Below are positions 14,549 to 27,072 of a stretch of 64,000 nt of DNA, one piece after another (within the stretch, counting starts at the first letter, position 1; each line of letters starts with the position of its first letter). The translations under genes and the position numbers were made by a program. The stretch is taken from the NCBI RefSeq assembly GCF_004766055.1, contig NZ_SPQR01000002.1, positions 124,001 to 188,000 on the forward strand. The letters run 5' to 3'. Below the pieces are notes generated by a model. It was not told the DNA's origin. It saw only the letters and a list, made by a program, of their open reading frames with translations, and did not search any database. Origin of the DNA: Desulfosporosinus sp. Sb-LF (GTDB lineage Bacteria; Bacillota; Desulfitobacteriia; Desulfitobacteriales; Desulfitobacteriaceae).

Positions 14549-14888
14549 TTTCCGTACTTCCCCTTTATTCTAGTAACTAACTGATCTTTTTTTATGCATT
14601 TGAGAACCTTATCTATAAGTCCCCCGCTTGTCAAGACACGATGGTGTTTTTCAGTTGACAATTCCCCCTTCCCTATCGGCCAGACTTCACCCCGGCGATC
14701 AGGTTCAATCTTGTTTATATGATTGTTTTAAGTTTCCGAATGATACACATCCTAAAATAGTTCGACACTTTTCATTATTCTCCTCCATGCTTATGATCTT
14801 GATCCGAGAGAAGATAAGAGCAAAACTAATTGCTTCCAAAAGATGAAAAAGACGGATCGGGATGCCTCATCCCACTATTTGAAACAAA

Positions 14889-14929
14889 AATGCCTTGGTG
14901 TGAGAATTCCATTTCTCAACCAACGCATT
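14889..14929. repeat. Repeat family D hairpin, copy 1
   Basis: AATGCCTTGGTGTGAGAA pairs with TTCTCAACCAACGCATT (one mismatch, one bulge) around a 6-nt loop, followed by AAATATTTG. Related copies are at 21211-21269 and, truncated, at 21886-21913. Confidence 0.6.
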
Positions 14930-14970
14930 AAATATTTGTTTATCAAATTCTAAGCACTAACCAAACCTTA

Positions 14971-21210: not shown

Positions 21211-21269
21211 AAATATCTAATGTGCCGTTGTGAGAATTTCTATCTTCTCAACCAACACATTAAATATTT
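21211..21269. repeat. Repeat family D hairpin, copy 2
   Basis: The left arm starts AAATATCTAATGTGCC and ends TGAGAA; the right arm starts TTCTCAACCAACAC and ends AAATATTT. The arms are 25-26 nt and mostly paired. It lies 5 bp beyond the stop of the stay-green gene, so it may also act as its terminator. Confidence 0.6.
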
Positions 21270-21273
21270 ACTC

Positions 21274-21729
21274 TTAATCTCTTCTCAATGAATAATCTTT
21301 AAAAATCCCCCAACACTCGACCCTGTTATATGCTGAATATATAGAACTAAAATTAATCCAAATCTCTGATTCATCCAAGTATGGATGGATCTCAAATAAA
21401 GTTCTGTCCCCATATCGAATACTTTCAAGCGCAAGCCTCAGTTCCTTCTTGAATATCATGTATCTAATTTTTGCGCTTTCTTTTCCCGTTTCACCACCTA
21501 CATGGCAAAATGCATTTAATGTATATTGATTGCTAATAATTAACCATTCTCCCAATACCTCATCCCTCGTCACGTTAACTTTTTCGTAGGCAAACGTTAA
21601 TCCTACTGTGAGAAATAATTCAGCAGTTACATCAGAATGAGTTAAAGTATATTTTCTACCCTTAATCGGTACTATTGGTGTAACTCCATTTCGAAATTCA
21701 ACATGTAATTTGTCTGGATTAAATTTCAT
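21274..21729 (-). CDS. Stay-green (SGR) family protein
   Basis: 151 residues matching the compact bacterial form of the stay-green domain. FNPDKLHVEFRNGVTP, GRKYTLTHSDVTAELFLTVG, RDEVLGEW, LALESIRYGDRTLFEIHPYL and WINFSSIYSAYNRVECWG follow the family in order. In plants SGR removes Mg from chlorophyll a; Mg-dechelatase activity has also been reported for a bacterial homologue. The His31/Asp33 pair of THSD sits where conserved His/Asp residues are found in that group. Nothing else here suggests photosynthesis, so the natural substrate is unclear: possibly another metallo-tetrapyrrole. It is an isolated gene framed by hairpin repeats, which suggests acquisition. Confidence 0.85.
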   Translation of the reverse strand: MKFNPDKLHVEFRNGVTPIVPIKGRKYTLTHSDVTAELFLTVGLTFAYEKVNVTRDEVLGEWLIISNQYTLNAFCHVGGETGKESAKIRYMIFKKELRLALESIRYGDRTLFEIHPYLDESEIWINFSSIYSAYNRVECWGIFKDYSLRRD

Positions 21730-21885
21730 ATTTAATCACTTCCTTGTTTATAGGTCCACTTATACTATTAAAACATTGAGCAAAATGTACCCTGTTACAT
21801 GCAAAAGCGCTAATACAATGATGCCTCCAAAGAAATCACTCACCTCTTTTCTCGACCCTCATCTCGCTCTTCAACTCAGAAACAA

Positions 21886-21913
21886 AATGCGCTGGTGTGA
21901 GAATTTCTATCTT
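21886..21913. repeat. Repeat family D, truncated copy 3
   Basis: AATGCGCTGGTGTGAGAA then TTTCTATCTT matches the left arm and loop of copy 2. The right arm is missing; homology ends where the IS3-type inverted repeat begins at 21913. Confidence 0.55.
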
Positions 21914-21977
21914 TGATATGCTACCCCCAGACAGGAAGTGAAATAAATAACTGTTCATTCTGGGGGTAGCATATCAA
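21913..21977. repeat. 19-bp inverted repeat formed by an inverted copy of the orfA end
   Basis: TTGATATGCTACCCCCAGA (21913-21931) is repeated inverted at 21959-21977, with 27 bp between. The right copy encodes the last residues of the IS3-type orfA (..IDMLPPE). The left copy is therefore an inverted duplication of the orfA end, where orfB should begin. Confidence 0.75.
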
Positions 21978-22368
21978 TCTGCCGATATGATTTTTCTACA
22001 AATTCCAGTTCCTGTCGTGTATATGCCAGTTCATGCTCCAACCGGGCAAGTTTTTCTTCTGTAGTTTTTGCCCTGCCATAAATAGCACTGGGTGACCACT
22101 GCACCTTACGGTCGGTAAAGCCGTGTCCGCTTTTACCCTGTTGCACTGCATGCATTCGAATGCTGACGATACGCGATTCGCCCAATGTTTCCGGGTTAAT
22201 GCCCATTTCACGCAGAATCTCTTTCGGTGATTTTCCTTTCGTATATTCCTCATAAAAGCGTTGCTTGAATTCTGCAGTAAAGCTAACCTGCCGCACAGTA
22301 ACACTTGCAACGTAAGGACTGCTCTTTAATAGTTCTATTTGCTCAAAACTTAATGTACTTACTCCCAT
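21955..22368 (-). pseudogene. IS3-type transposase orfA remnant
   Basis: 137 codons. A helix-turn-helix part (FTAEFKQRFYEEYTKGKSPK, then EILREMGINPETLGESRI) is followed by a leucine-zipper-like coil (EEKLARLEHELAYTRQELEF) and stops at PPE. This is the DNA-binding OrfA of an IS3-group element. The catalytic DDE OrfB, normally reached by frameshift, is absent downstream and replaced by an inverted duplication. It therefore cannot transpose on its own. Confidence 0.7.
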
Positions 22369-23394: not shown

Positions 23395-23949
23395 CTACTC
23401 AGAAAAAAATATCATACTAAAATAAGTTACTGTGTCGGATCCATTGTTGTAACGAATGCCTACAGAGGGGGCCAGTTGCATTACCAGGATGCCAAAGCCC
23501 TCTGTTGCCGGGAACATGCGCTTTGGAAAGCGGCAAGGATTCTCCGGATAGGTACATTTCGGACATATAGTACAACCTTCTGTTGAAAGAATCATCGGAT
23601 TGCTAAATTCCTTACGAAAAATCTGCGCAACTTTTTCAGTAACTGCCTCGTGTGCGATTCTTGCCTCACGCCAACCAGCCATGTCATACTTCTTTTTTAG
23701 CCTAGTCACTGTTGTAAAAATTAGAGCATGCTTATATCCCAGGCATTGCTTTTTACAGTCTTCGATACTGCCGATTGCCGGTGGACAGGCCCATGAAGTA
23801 CCATACATTCCGCAGGAGTTCTTTTCGCACAGTCCTCTTACTTCCTGAGAAAATATAACTTCCTCAGCCTTGATAAAAGCGTATTCATGAATTTTGAGGG
23901 CCATTTTTTCTCGGGACATAATTCCCTCTATTTGCATCGTATAATCCAC
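23395..23949 (-). CDS. DUF2284 cysteine-rich metal-binding protein
   Basis: 184 residues starting at GTG 23949, chosen for GGAGG six bases upstream. The family pattern is clear: CEKNSCGMYGTSWACPPAIG, then SIEDCKKQCLGY, and the ferredoxin-like CTICPKCTYPENPCRFP, giving about nine conserved Cys that could hold an iron-sulfur cluster or other metal. Function in this family is not established. It is the last gene of a probable operon with two flavin reductases and may serve their electron supply (inference). Confidence 0.88.
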   Translation of the reverse strand: MDYTMQIEGIMSREKMALKIHEYAFIKAEEVIFSQEVRGLCEKNSCGMYGTSWACPPAIGSIEDCKKQCLGYKHALIFTTVTRLKKKYDMAGWREARIAHEAVTEKVAQIFRKEFSNPMILSTEGCTICPKCTYPENPCRFPKRMFPATEGFGILVMQLAPSVGIRYNNGSDTVTYFSMIFFSE

Positions 23950-24055
23950 CTCTCGCCTCCAAGAGCCTATTTAAATCTAAGGCAAAGATGTTTCAGTCAG
24001 TACCATAAGCCGGCTACAATGGTTAGGGAATGGCAAAGCCGGTGCTATTTAATAT

Positions 24056-25129
24056 TCAATCATTAAAGATACATTTTATTTCCTTACCAAAACACTTGGT
24101 GCAAGAAATACATGTCGCAGGTGTCTTATCTCCACTGATCCAGCGATTAATCAGACCAGGTTCTCGTATGAAAGGCCTACAAAACGAAATATACTCAATT
24201 TTTGTTTGAATTATAATCTCTGTTAATTTATCAAAGTCTCGATTTCCACCCACTAATAAAACCGGTATATCAATTTCTTCTGCAATTTCTGCTGCATATT
24301 GCTTGAAATATGATTCGCTTTCTGGAGTGATTTTCCTAATCGTTCCCTCATTAGGCCTGGATGATGCGAGGCCTCCGCTTATTTCAAGAGCAGACACTCC
24401 TGCTTTTTCTAACATGTTACAAACATACTTGCATTCTTCATAAGTCATGCCTTGCTCCATAAAATCATCACAGTTGATTTTAACCAGCACAGGGAATTCC
24501 ACTCCCACAACCGCTCTAATACGGCGATAAGTTTCCAGCACTGCTCTCACCCTATTTTCCATGCTACCACCATATTCATCTGTTCTACGGTTGTAATATG
24601 GAGTTAGAAATCTGCTCAAAAGATATCCATGAGCGACGTGAATCTGTATACCATCAAAGCCCGCTTTTTTAGCCCTAATAGCTCCATTGGCAAAAGCATC
24701 TTGCATAATATATATATCGTCTTTTGTCATTTCCTTTGGTACTGTTCCCAATACCAAATCCGCCACTGCACTTGGTCCCCATAATAATCCATCGGCAGTA
24801 CTGGAATTTTGGGCGCCATTGCAAACGAGTTGAACAATGATATTTGTATCATGCTGATGAACTAGGTCAGTTAGTTTTTGATATTCATCAATAAATGAAT
24901 CGTTATAAATTCCCATTTGTCCTGGCACTAACTTTTCTACATCCGTCACATTTGTTAGTCCGGTGATAATGGTACCGACCCCTCCTTTAGCAAGGGTTTC
25001 ATAAACATGTAGTAGTTTTTCTGTTACGTGCCCTTCTTTATCAGCCGCCCCATCATAGGTTGCCGAACGGATAAATCTGTTTTTCAGCTTCATTCCTGAT
25101 ATTTGTGTTTGGTCAAATAATGTTTTCAT
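24056..25129 (-). CDS. Old Yellow Enzyme family NADH:flavin oxidoreductase (paralogue 1)
   Basis: 357 residues, a single FMN-binding TIM barrel. Family marks are FIRSATYDGAADKEG, GFDGIQIHVAHGYLLSRFLT, YNRRTDEYGGSMENRVR and the phosphate site VLLVGGNRDFD..ISFCRPFIREP. The C-terminus CISCTKCFGKEIKC retains four Cys reminiscent of the 4Fe-4S motif of the longer 2,4-dienoyl-CoA reductase branch, without its FAD/NADH domain. Such enzymes reduce activated C=C bonds or nitro compounds. The gene is 33 bp downstream of its paralogue, with the same ribosome-site region and first residues (MKTLFDQT), indicating tandem duplication. Confidence 0.92.
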   Translation of the reverse strand: MKTLFDQTQISGMKLKNRFIRSATYDGAADKEGHVTEKLLHVYETLAKGGVGTIITGLTNVTDVEKLVPGQMGIYNDSFIDEYQKLTDLVHQHDTNIIVQLVCNGAQNSSTADGLLWGPSAVADLVLGTVPKEMTKDDIYIMQDAFANGAIRAKKAGFDGIQIHVAHGYLLSRFLTPYYNRRTDEYGGSMENRVRAVLETYRRIRAVVGVEFPVLVKINCDDFMEQGMTYEECKYVCNMLEKAGVSALEISGGLASSRPNEGTIRKITPESESYFKQYAAEIAEEIDIPVLLVGGNRDFDKLTEIIIQTKIEYISFCRPFIREPGLINRWISGDKTPATCISCTKCFGKEIKCIFND

Positions 25130-25161
25130 TTAATTCGCTCCTTCAAATCTACTAGTAAATG

Positions 25162-26376
25162 CTAAGAATTGCTTACCGGAACCTTACCATAGTAGCATTT
25201 AAGCGGTGACTTTTCACAACCGATGATACAGAAATTACATTGTATACATTTTGTTTGTGTCTGTTTTTTTGTTTTAAATTTATTGACTATATCTGGTTCG
25301 ATGATAAATGGCCTACACATAGAAACTGCAACAAACTTATCATTATTAATTATGTCTTCTATTTCTTCTAATTTTGTTATTCCTCCGACTAGAATCACCG
25401 GAATATTTACAGCTTTCTTGATTGCCATGGCTGCTTCTAAGTTATATAAGTTTTTCGGCTGAGGTTGTGGTACCGCTTTATTTGAGATGACACCAACAAA
25501 TTTTTTCACAAATTCAGGCATTTTATTTAACTTTTCATTTTGTGCTACTATCATTCTCCATGGCACCTGTCCACGAATTGTCGCCATCCCAGCTTTTAAT
25601 GATCCATTTGAAACTTCAATCCCGTCACATCCAACCTGCTCTAAAAGTTTTGCAATTTTTTCAGACTCTTCAATTGTCATGCCATTTTTTAAAGGTTCAT
25701 ATCCATTTACTTTTACGATTAGTGGATAATCCCCGACTTCCTTCCTGGCCTTTTCAAAAATCATTTTAACAATCCTAAATCTGTTTTCTGTACTACCGCC
25801 CCATTCATCGTTTCTCCTGTTCATTCTTGGCGATACGAATTCTGAAAGTAAATATCCATGCGACATATGAATTTGTACACCATCAAAACCTGCTTCTTTT
25901 GCGTTTTTTATTCCTTGAACAAACTCTTCTATTACTTCTAAAATTTCGGCTTTAGTCATTTCTCTTGCTTTATAGTCCGATATTTTAGAAGGTGCAACAA
26001 TCGGCATATGGGCACTTTCTTCTTTTGACTGACCTCCACAATGATTAAGTTGGGCAATAACTGGAGTTCCCAGTTCGTGCATTCTGTTCATTAATTTTTT
26101 TAAGACCTCAATATTTCCAGCTTCATTAAGCATAACCATATTACTTGAAGCCTTTCCTTGCTGACCCACTCCAATAAAGCCAGTAATAATTCCACCAACC
26201 CCGCCTTTCGCTAATGCTTCGTACTTTTTAAGTAACTGATCACTAGGCTTGCCTTTTTCATCAGCGATTCCTTCAAATGTTGCCGATCTAATTATTCGGT
26301 TAGGAAATGTTATACCTGCCAATTCAAAGGGCTCAAATACCTTATTTCCTTTTGTTTGGTCAAATAATGTTTTCAT
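25162..26376 (-). CDS. Old Yellow Enzyme family NADH:flavin oxidoreductase (paralogue 2)
   Basis: 404 residues. FPNRIIRSATFEGIADEKGK, GFDGVQIHMSHGYLLSEFVS, RMNRRNDEWGGSTENRFRIV and PVILVGGITKLEE..VSMCRPFIIEP identify the FMN barrel, with HMSHGY carrying the usual His pair. The tail CIQCNFCIIGCEKSPLKC has five Cys. It is longer than paralogue 1 through an N-terminal insert and a segment before GGITKL. First enzyme gene downstream of the TetR gene; a TetR-type operator half (TTTTGAGAACGTTC) is about 30 bp upstream, so the pair is probably induced by a substrate-like compound. Confidence 0.92.
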   Translation of the reverse strand: MKTLFDQTKGNKVFEPFELAGITFPNRIIRSATFEGIADEKGKPSDQLLKKYEALAKGGVGGIITGFIGVGQQGKASSNMVMLNEAGNIEVLKKLMNRMHELGTPVIAQLNHCGGQSKEESAHMPIVAPSKISDYKAREMTKAEILEVIEEFVQGIKNAKEAGFDGVQIHMSHGYLLSEFVSPRMNRRNDEWGGSTENRFRIVKMIFEKARKEVGDYPLIVKVNGYEPLKNGMTIEESEKIAKLLEQVGCDGIEVSNGSLKAGMATIRGQVPWRMIVAQNEKLNKMPEFVKKFVGVISNKAVPQPQPKNLYNLEAAMAIKKAVNIPVILVGGITKLEEIEDIINNDKFVAVSMCRPFIIEPDIVNKFKTKKQTQTKCIQCNFCIIGCEKSPLKCYYGKVPVSNS

Positions 26377-26402
26377 TAAACTCGCTCCTGCAAATATTTT
26401 TG

Positions 26403-26421
26403 TTTTTGAGAACGTTCATTC
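26403..26421. promoter_or_regulatory. Probable operator before the flavin reductase operon
   Basis: TTTTTGAGAACGTTCATTC shares TTTTGAGAACGnTC with 27052-27072, in front of the TetR gene. It lies between the regulator's stop and the first reductase start, where the cognate TetR protein would act. Binding is inferred. Confidence 0.5.
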
Positions 26422-26440
26422 TAATTTGCATAAAAAAATC

Positions 26441-27019
26441 TCATTTGTTTAATATTGCTAAGGAAAAATCTGCTATACGATGTAACTTGTCTTTGCTAGC
26501 TGAGGTTCTTGCAAGTACCCGAATCCCAAGCAAAGTATTGTTCAAGGTTTCTGCCACAAGCTCAGCATCATAATCGCATGTAAATTCACCTGTTTGTTGT
26601 CCTTTACGAATAAGCTCTGCAAGTAAATGCTCTGCTTGCATAAATGCTTCTTTCGTCTTTTCATTTACATCCTTATCTCGGGGAGCCAGCTCAGTTGCTG
26701 AGTTTACAAATAGGCAACCCAATGGTCTGTCTTCATTTCCTTCGATGACAAAGTCAAAGATAAACTGTATCGCTTGTTTTGCAGTTTCTGCACGTGAAAT
26801 TTCCGATTTTAGTCTGGAATTTATAAATTCTCCGAATAAATTTATCGCTTTTAGAAATAATGTATGCTTATCACCGAAGGTATCATATAAACTTCTACGA
26901 TGGATTCCCATGTGCTCTACCAGGTCGCTCAGTGATGTCTTTTCATAACCTTGTTCCCAAAATAATTCCATGGCTTTCTGGAGAACTACACTTTCCTCAA
27001 ATTCCTTGCTTCGTCCCAT
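26441..27019 (-). CDS. TetR/AcrR-family regulator of the flavin reductase operon
   Basis: About 192 residues. The N-terminal helix-turn-helix is standard: AMELFWEQGYEKTSLSDLVE, then HMGIHRRSLYDTFGDKHTLF. The C-terminal part (CLFVNSATELAPRD.., LNNTLLGIRVLARTSAS) resembles the YxaF/AcuR-like group that often controls reductases. The open frame begins at 27052, but AGGAGGG lies before the ATG at 27019, the better start. It reads into the two reductase genes in the same direction, and near-identical operator-like motifs precede both it and them. Confidence 0.9.
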   Translation of the reverse strand: MGRSKEFEESVVLQKAMELFWEQGYEKTSLSDLVEHMGIHRRSLYDTFGDKHTLFLKAINLFGEFINSRLKSEISRAETAKQAIQFIFDFVIEGNEDRPLGCLFVNSATELAPRDKDVNEKTKEAFMQAEHLLAELIRKGQQTGEFTCDYDAELVAETLNNTLLGIRVLARTSASKDKLHRIADFSLAILNK

Positions 27020-27051
27020 TACTTTCCCTCCTGTTATTAGGAATAGTAACA

Positions 27052-27072
27052 TTTTGAGAACGATCGGTCAAG
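27052..27072. promoter_or_regulatory. Probable autoregulatory operator of the TetR gene
   Basis: TTTTGAGAACGATCGGTCAA contains the shared half TTTTGAGAACGnTC, with partial dyad symmetry around CGATCG (TTGA..TCAA). It is about 33 bp upstream of the chosen TetR start. Confidence 0.5.

Follow-up and report, generated by a model that had tools for sequence, protein, structure and literature searches.

A likely metal dechelatase gene of the Stay-Green type, present as a lone accessory gene in a sulfate reducer without chlorophyll synthesis

The window, defined here as the whole 64,000-nucleotide stretch of DNA that was analysed, is likely to carry an intact bacterial gene for a Stay-Green (SGR)-type metal dechelatase, present as a single-gene accessory unit in a sulfate-reducing anaerobe that lacks chlorophyll synthesis. 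Computation supports this explanation on several lines: family membership, fold, active site, purifying selection, a patchy distribution, the lack of chlorophyll biosynthesis in the host, and recombinase remnants on both sides of the gene. The gene adds an ordinary further member to the bacterial SGRs already reported; that relatives of the host which do make chlorophyll also have intact copies looks more surprising. The role of bacterial Stay-Green proteins is stated in the literature to be unknown (PMC8531759), and this copy is a clean example, in that the gene is intact, encodes the whole active site and is under purifying selection although its host lacks chlorophyll synthesis.

Family, fold and active site

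The SGR gene occupies positions 21274-21729 on the minus strand and runs uninterrupted from ATG to stop, encoding 151 amino acids. In an hmmscan search the Pfam Staygreen profile (PF12638) matched it over profile positions 1-147 of 147, with a score of 190.1 bits (E 2.5e-56) against a cut-off of 27 bits. It is the single Staygreen match in the host genome, and 14 control genomes yielded none; together, the full-profile match and the empty controls place the assignment far beyond chance. The best solved structure found by sequence (phmmer) is 7Y5Y, an Anaerolineae SGR (E 2.2e-28). An AlphaFold model built from a 21-sequence alignment of the window protein and fetched loci reached a mean pLDDT of 92.1 and a pTM of 0.87, as compared with a pLDDT of 31.5 for a single-sequence model. 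Foldseek aligned the model to 7Y5Y with an E value of 1.1e-18 and a TM-score of 0.91, and VIA-align did so with a Z of 23.4 and an rmsd of 1.8 over 147 residues; the next, unrelated chain scored a Z of 5.3. Cofilin-like and Tdp2-like fold matches (Z about 4-5) are middling and were not taken as kinship. The window protein is a full-length Staygreen family member with the SGR fold. The profile search and structure prediction proposed as checks both came out in favour of the earlier claim that it follows the family from end to end; all four sequence motifs quoted for it occur in the translation, and the His31/Asp33 site is intact and is joined by Asp56.

Aligned with AbSGR-h, the protein of 7Y5Y (alignment A1), the predicted catalytic codons lie within 21562-21639 on the minus strand: H31 (21637-21639), D33 (21631-21633) and D56 (21562-21564) correspond to H32, D34 and D62 of AbSGR-h, and all three are invariant across 21 sequences (alignment A2). 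R25, Y27, T28 and D108 correspond to the structural residues R26, Y28, T29 and D114. Changing AbSGR-h to D34N or D62N leaves a soluble protein without activity, the H32A mutant is weakly active, and the four structural residues are required for solubility (PMC8531759); D34 has been proposed as the Mg coordinator, with H32 and D62 assisting (PMC11006732). Because every catalytic and structural residue of AbSGR-h is kept, we expect the window protein to carry out Mg-dechelation chemistry, and the gene is probably functional. By analogy with AbSGR-h, D33 would coordinate the central Mg of a chlorin with the assistance of H31 and D56, protons would replace the metal, and a free base of the pheophytin or pheophorbide type would be released. 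In vitro, the purified protein should accordingly be able to remove the metal from chlorophyllide or chlorophyll a.

The likeness to AbSGR-h covers length, fold, the H/D/D active site and the structural R, Y, T and D, and it extends to the type of host, since AbSGR-h is described among homologues from bacteria without chlorophyll (PMC8621299). The two differ in that AbSGR-h carries a five-residue insertion before the RDE motif and, unlike the window protein, has measured activity. Their identity is only about 40%, which we count against the preferred explanation, as Mg-dechelating activity differs widely between bacterial homologues (PMC8621299). Plant STAY-GREEN (NYE/SGR/SGRL) belongs to the same family, and in AtSGRL the aspartates that correspond to D33 and D56 are reported to be essential (PMC8531759); unlike the window protein, it is a plastid enzyme that serves to break down chlorophyll a, and its substrate range is narrower (PMC11006732).

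Host and candidate substrates

The host genome (4.27 Mb, 99.99% complete) contains dsrA (554 bits) and, adjoining it, a second and weaker hit of the dsrA type, as expected for dsrB, indicating that the host is a sulfate reducer. Judged together with its class-mates, it is probably a Desulfosporosinus. Profile searches of this genome detected neither BchH/CobN nor BchY, and BchL gave below-cut-off matches only (208 vs 345 bits). These negatives are meaningful because the Bch searches were strongly positive in phototrophic class-mates. The host is a non-phototrophic sulfate reducer unable to make chlorophyll, in agreement with its earlier description as a non-photosynthetic anaerobe; a component of chlorophyll breakdown would be looked for in a host that makes (bacterio)chlorophyll, and this one does not.

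The cellular substrate might, rather speculatively, be Mg-tetrapyrroles taken up from the debris of plants or phototrophs in anoxic soil or sediment. No gene for chlorophyll uptake or further breakdown was seen beside the SGR gene, and this counts against the dechelatase reading, as do the lack of a conserved neighbour and of a detected promoter. It is somewhat unlikely that the true substrate is instead one of the host's own tetrapyrroles (a cobalt or nickel corrinoid precursor, sirohydrochlorin, siroheme or heme), with Mg-dechelation of chlorophylls as a side activity. Such a substrate would suit a host that lacks chlorophyll yet holds its SGR gene under purifying selection, and the literature terms the Mg activity of bacterial homologues promiscuous and its physiological relevance unknown (PMC8621299, PMC8531759). 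However, the window protein has the catalytic residues of the Mg enzyme, no cobalamin, heme or siroheme gene shows a conserved link to SGR, and the proximity of CbiK to SGR in two heliobacteria is loose, with other genes intervening and CbiK occupying the same place where SGR is missing. Both kinds of substrate had been offered in the original prediction; nothing was found that would make a tetrapyrrole of cobalt, nickel or iron the better candidate than chlorophyll scavenged from outside.

Staygreen genes in heliobacteria-like relatives

Intact, full-length Staygreen genes are present in four of nine heliobacteria-like genomes of the host's own taxonomic class (G070, G066, G067 and G068; loci L022, L023, L024 and L025). 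They score 179-185 bits, and their products are 45-49% identical to the window protein. BchY was found in all eight genomes of this family (f4) that were tested; the four Staygreen carriers have BchH at 1255-1259 bits and BchL above the cut-off, and in G068 BchX (above cut-off) and BchZ stand with BchY. From gene content and class we infer that the f4 genomes are heliobacteria. Unlike the window host, the four carriers make bacteriochlorophyll (BchH, BchL, BchXYZ) and so have a native substrate available. Among sampled Firmicutes outside the class, about 5 of 380 have the gene; set against this, the frequency of four in nine gives, with rounded totals, a Fisher p of about 1e-5 by genome and 0.002 by genus. 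The four carriers amount to two pairs of related genomes, which makes the enrichment weak.

The heliobacterial Staygreen contigs look native: the genes match their surroundings in G+C content, and the G068 contig encodes an AlaRS with 95-97% identity to that of other members of its genus. In G069, which has no SGR gene, AlaRS stands next to CbiK, separated from it by short Fic-gene remnants, an arrangement that marks the SGR site there as a variable stretch; SGR may have been lost from G069 by deletion. We rejected CbiK as a tetrapyrrole link to SGR in the two heliobacteria where it lies nearby, since CbiK follows AlaRS even in a relative that lacks SGR. In two heliobacteria (L034:9001-10464 and L035:9693-11090) a double carboxymuconolactone-decarboxylase-like gene lies about 25 nt before Staygreen on the same strand, a possible operon.

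Could Staygreen be a native tool of bacteriochlorophyll turnover in the heliobacteria of this class, with non-phototrophs such as the window host holding horizontally passed copies that demetallate the (bacterio)chlorophyll of co-occurring phototrophs? We consider this unlikely; if true, it would mean that the Staygreen family is not confined to non-photosynthetic prokaryotes. Prokaryotic SGRs in the literature that we found are described from non-phototrophs only, and a full-text search, which left out the main 2019 survey of bacterial homologues, returned nothing that links heliobacteria to stay-green. The novelty of the heliobacterial genes is not certain. They matter more than the window copy, in that they occur in bacteriochlorophyll phototrophs and are missing from some close relatives of these, which would make a native role genetically testable, and they qualify statements that place prokaryotic SGR solely outside phototrophs.

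A maximum-likelihood tree of 31 Staygreen proteins has a split with 99/98 support between the Bacillus and Peptostreptococcaceae copies on one side and, on the other, the window copy, that of the congeneric genome G009, the heliobacterial copies, those of other Firmicutes, and AbSGR-h. Finer placement is weak, with long branches, and the positions of the window and G009 copies are poorly supported. In the best tree the heliobacterial copies form two groups, apart from the window copy; one clade of all six has an AU p of 0.068, short of a firm rejection. Vertical inheritance from a phototroph ancestral to the class is thus unsupported, as the heliobacterial copies are split and do not join the window copy.

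Distribution, flanking DNA and mobility

Staygreen genes were reported from Clostridium and Bacillus in 2009, and horizontal transfer was proposed (PMC2716323). The original prediction was right that Mg-dechelatase activity has been published for a bacterial SGR; its picture of a rare curiosity with one active member does not hold in view of that report. Like those genes, the window copy is found in Firmicutes, sporadically and without conserved context. It differs from the sampled Bacillus and Peptostreptococcaceae copies, which fall across the 99/98 split, and from the Bacillus copies in having no fixed surroundings, whereas they mostly lie in a parE-parC neighbourhood. No SGR neighbour recurs across families, apart from a chromosomal block in Bacillaceae (parE, parC, symporter, hypothetical gene, SGR), in agreement with the 2009 statement that Sgr-like genes have no conserved context (PMC2716323). 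The fixed neighbourhood of parE, parC and an alanine symporter was seen at the Bacillaceae loci L004-L015, L017, L020, L021 and L045, where SGR usually stands directly behind a conserved, putatively secreted protein without assigned function.

Phylum-wide, Staygreen was found in 8 of 398 sampled genomes. Within the genus, 2 of 29 genomes, the window's included, carry an intact SGR gene, the other being G009, and one (G011) carries a remnant (L031:7901-8158) that is frameshifted and truncated, shares 91% DNA identity with the window gene over 247 bp, and retains the near part of its upstream flank. The window and G009 have in common a block consisting of the SGR gene and its upstream flank (21253-21913, minus strand; 675 aligned columns, 78.7% identity). 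This block ends at or near a pair of 28-nt direct repeats, and beyond it the two genomes share no synteny except scattered repeats. Between the two copies, which are 79% identical in protein sequence, dN is 0.11 and dS is 0.54 (dN/dS about 0.2), indicating purifying selection at least since they parted.

The direct repeats, both on the minus strand, are 89% identical and 667 bp apart. The downstream copy (21219-21246), just behind the SGR stop codon, reads as a decayed serine-recombinase C-terminus, IFNVLVEKIEILTTAH; the upstream copy (21886-21913) reads KIEILTPAHFVSELKSEMRVEK, a recombinase 3' end, and is also found 5' of the SGR gene in G009. The repeat copies read as the final codons of serine recombinases, FNALVEKIEILTPTHFVFELKSGMRVEE. 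The host genome also has a longer copy (L054), which contains a recombinase zinc-ribbon domain that scores just over the cut-off (25.4 vs 25.3 bits). An 18-mer repeat core has eight genomic copies at up to one mismatch, and a reversed control has none. The SGR gene of G009 has an intact serine recombinase about 3 kb away, and an ORF between the two resembles, by eye, a group II intron reverse transcriptase. Serine-recombinase 3'-end fragments are scattered through the host genome, with another in the window at about 14882-14943.

The gene had been described as sitting between two hairpin repeats. What flanks it is the direct repeat of recombinase 3' ends, and there is one hairpin, on one side only: a perfect 19-bp stem with a 27-nt loop (21913-21977; arms 21913-21931 and 21959-21977). 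Beside the hairpin is the N-terminal fragment of a transposase (21955-22368, minus strand; Pfam HTH_Tnp_2). A single ORF between direct repeats suggested an integron cassette with attC sites; we rejected this, because the repeats are C-terminal codons of a serine recombinase, the longer copy carries a zinc ribbon, and other copies are scattered recombinase fragments and not arrays. The flanks had no Rfam match at gathering score, and a simple scan found no sigma-70-like promoter upstream of SGR. Farther along the window, positions 23395-27052 encode two tandem old-yellow-enzyme-like oxidoreductases, a DUF2284 metal-binding protein and a TetR-like regulator, for which no link to Staygreen was found.

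The patchy distribution, the lack of shared synteny and the recombinase remnants on both sides support the acquisition that had been proposed, and point to a single-gene accessory that was acquired or is mobile; the weak support for the window and G009 positions in the tree counts against naming a direction or route of transfer. Recombinase-linked movement, as opposed to descent, might tentatively account for its spread within the genus. A phage or plasmid origin was rejected, since no phage record has an SGR relative and the relatives in five plasmid records are all below 60% identity. We find it very improbable that this is a recently acquired gene heading to decay, with no present function: its place among recombinase and transposase remnants, the broken copy in G011 and the lack of a promoter-like site upstream would fit, but the low dN/dS between intact copies, the full length and the retention of all active-site residues argue against it.

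AbSGR-h is reported to form a homo-oligomer, to have a hydrophobic patch surrounding D34 and to accept a broad range of substrates (PMC8531759, PMC11006732); the oligomer has been described as a hexamer, and it is dispensable for activity (PMC8531759). These properties would also suit a protein that binds tetrapyrroles or other hydrophobic ligands, for example by sequestering photosensitising pigments, and has no metabolic role as a demetallase. The family does include a scaffold without the H/D pair, on a Clostridioides difficile plasmid, but the window protein keeps all catalytic residues, and for it we regard simple binding as a very unlikely role next to the dechelatase reading. The C. difficile gene (plasmid pZ1322HCD0102-2; L047:7953-8405) encodes a divergent Staygreen protein with 30% identity, in which the THSD motif has become SYLE, so that other residues stand in place of the catalytic His and Asp, although the counterpart of D56 and the scaffold are retained; it possibly represents a non-dechelating subfamily.
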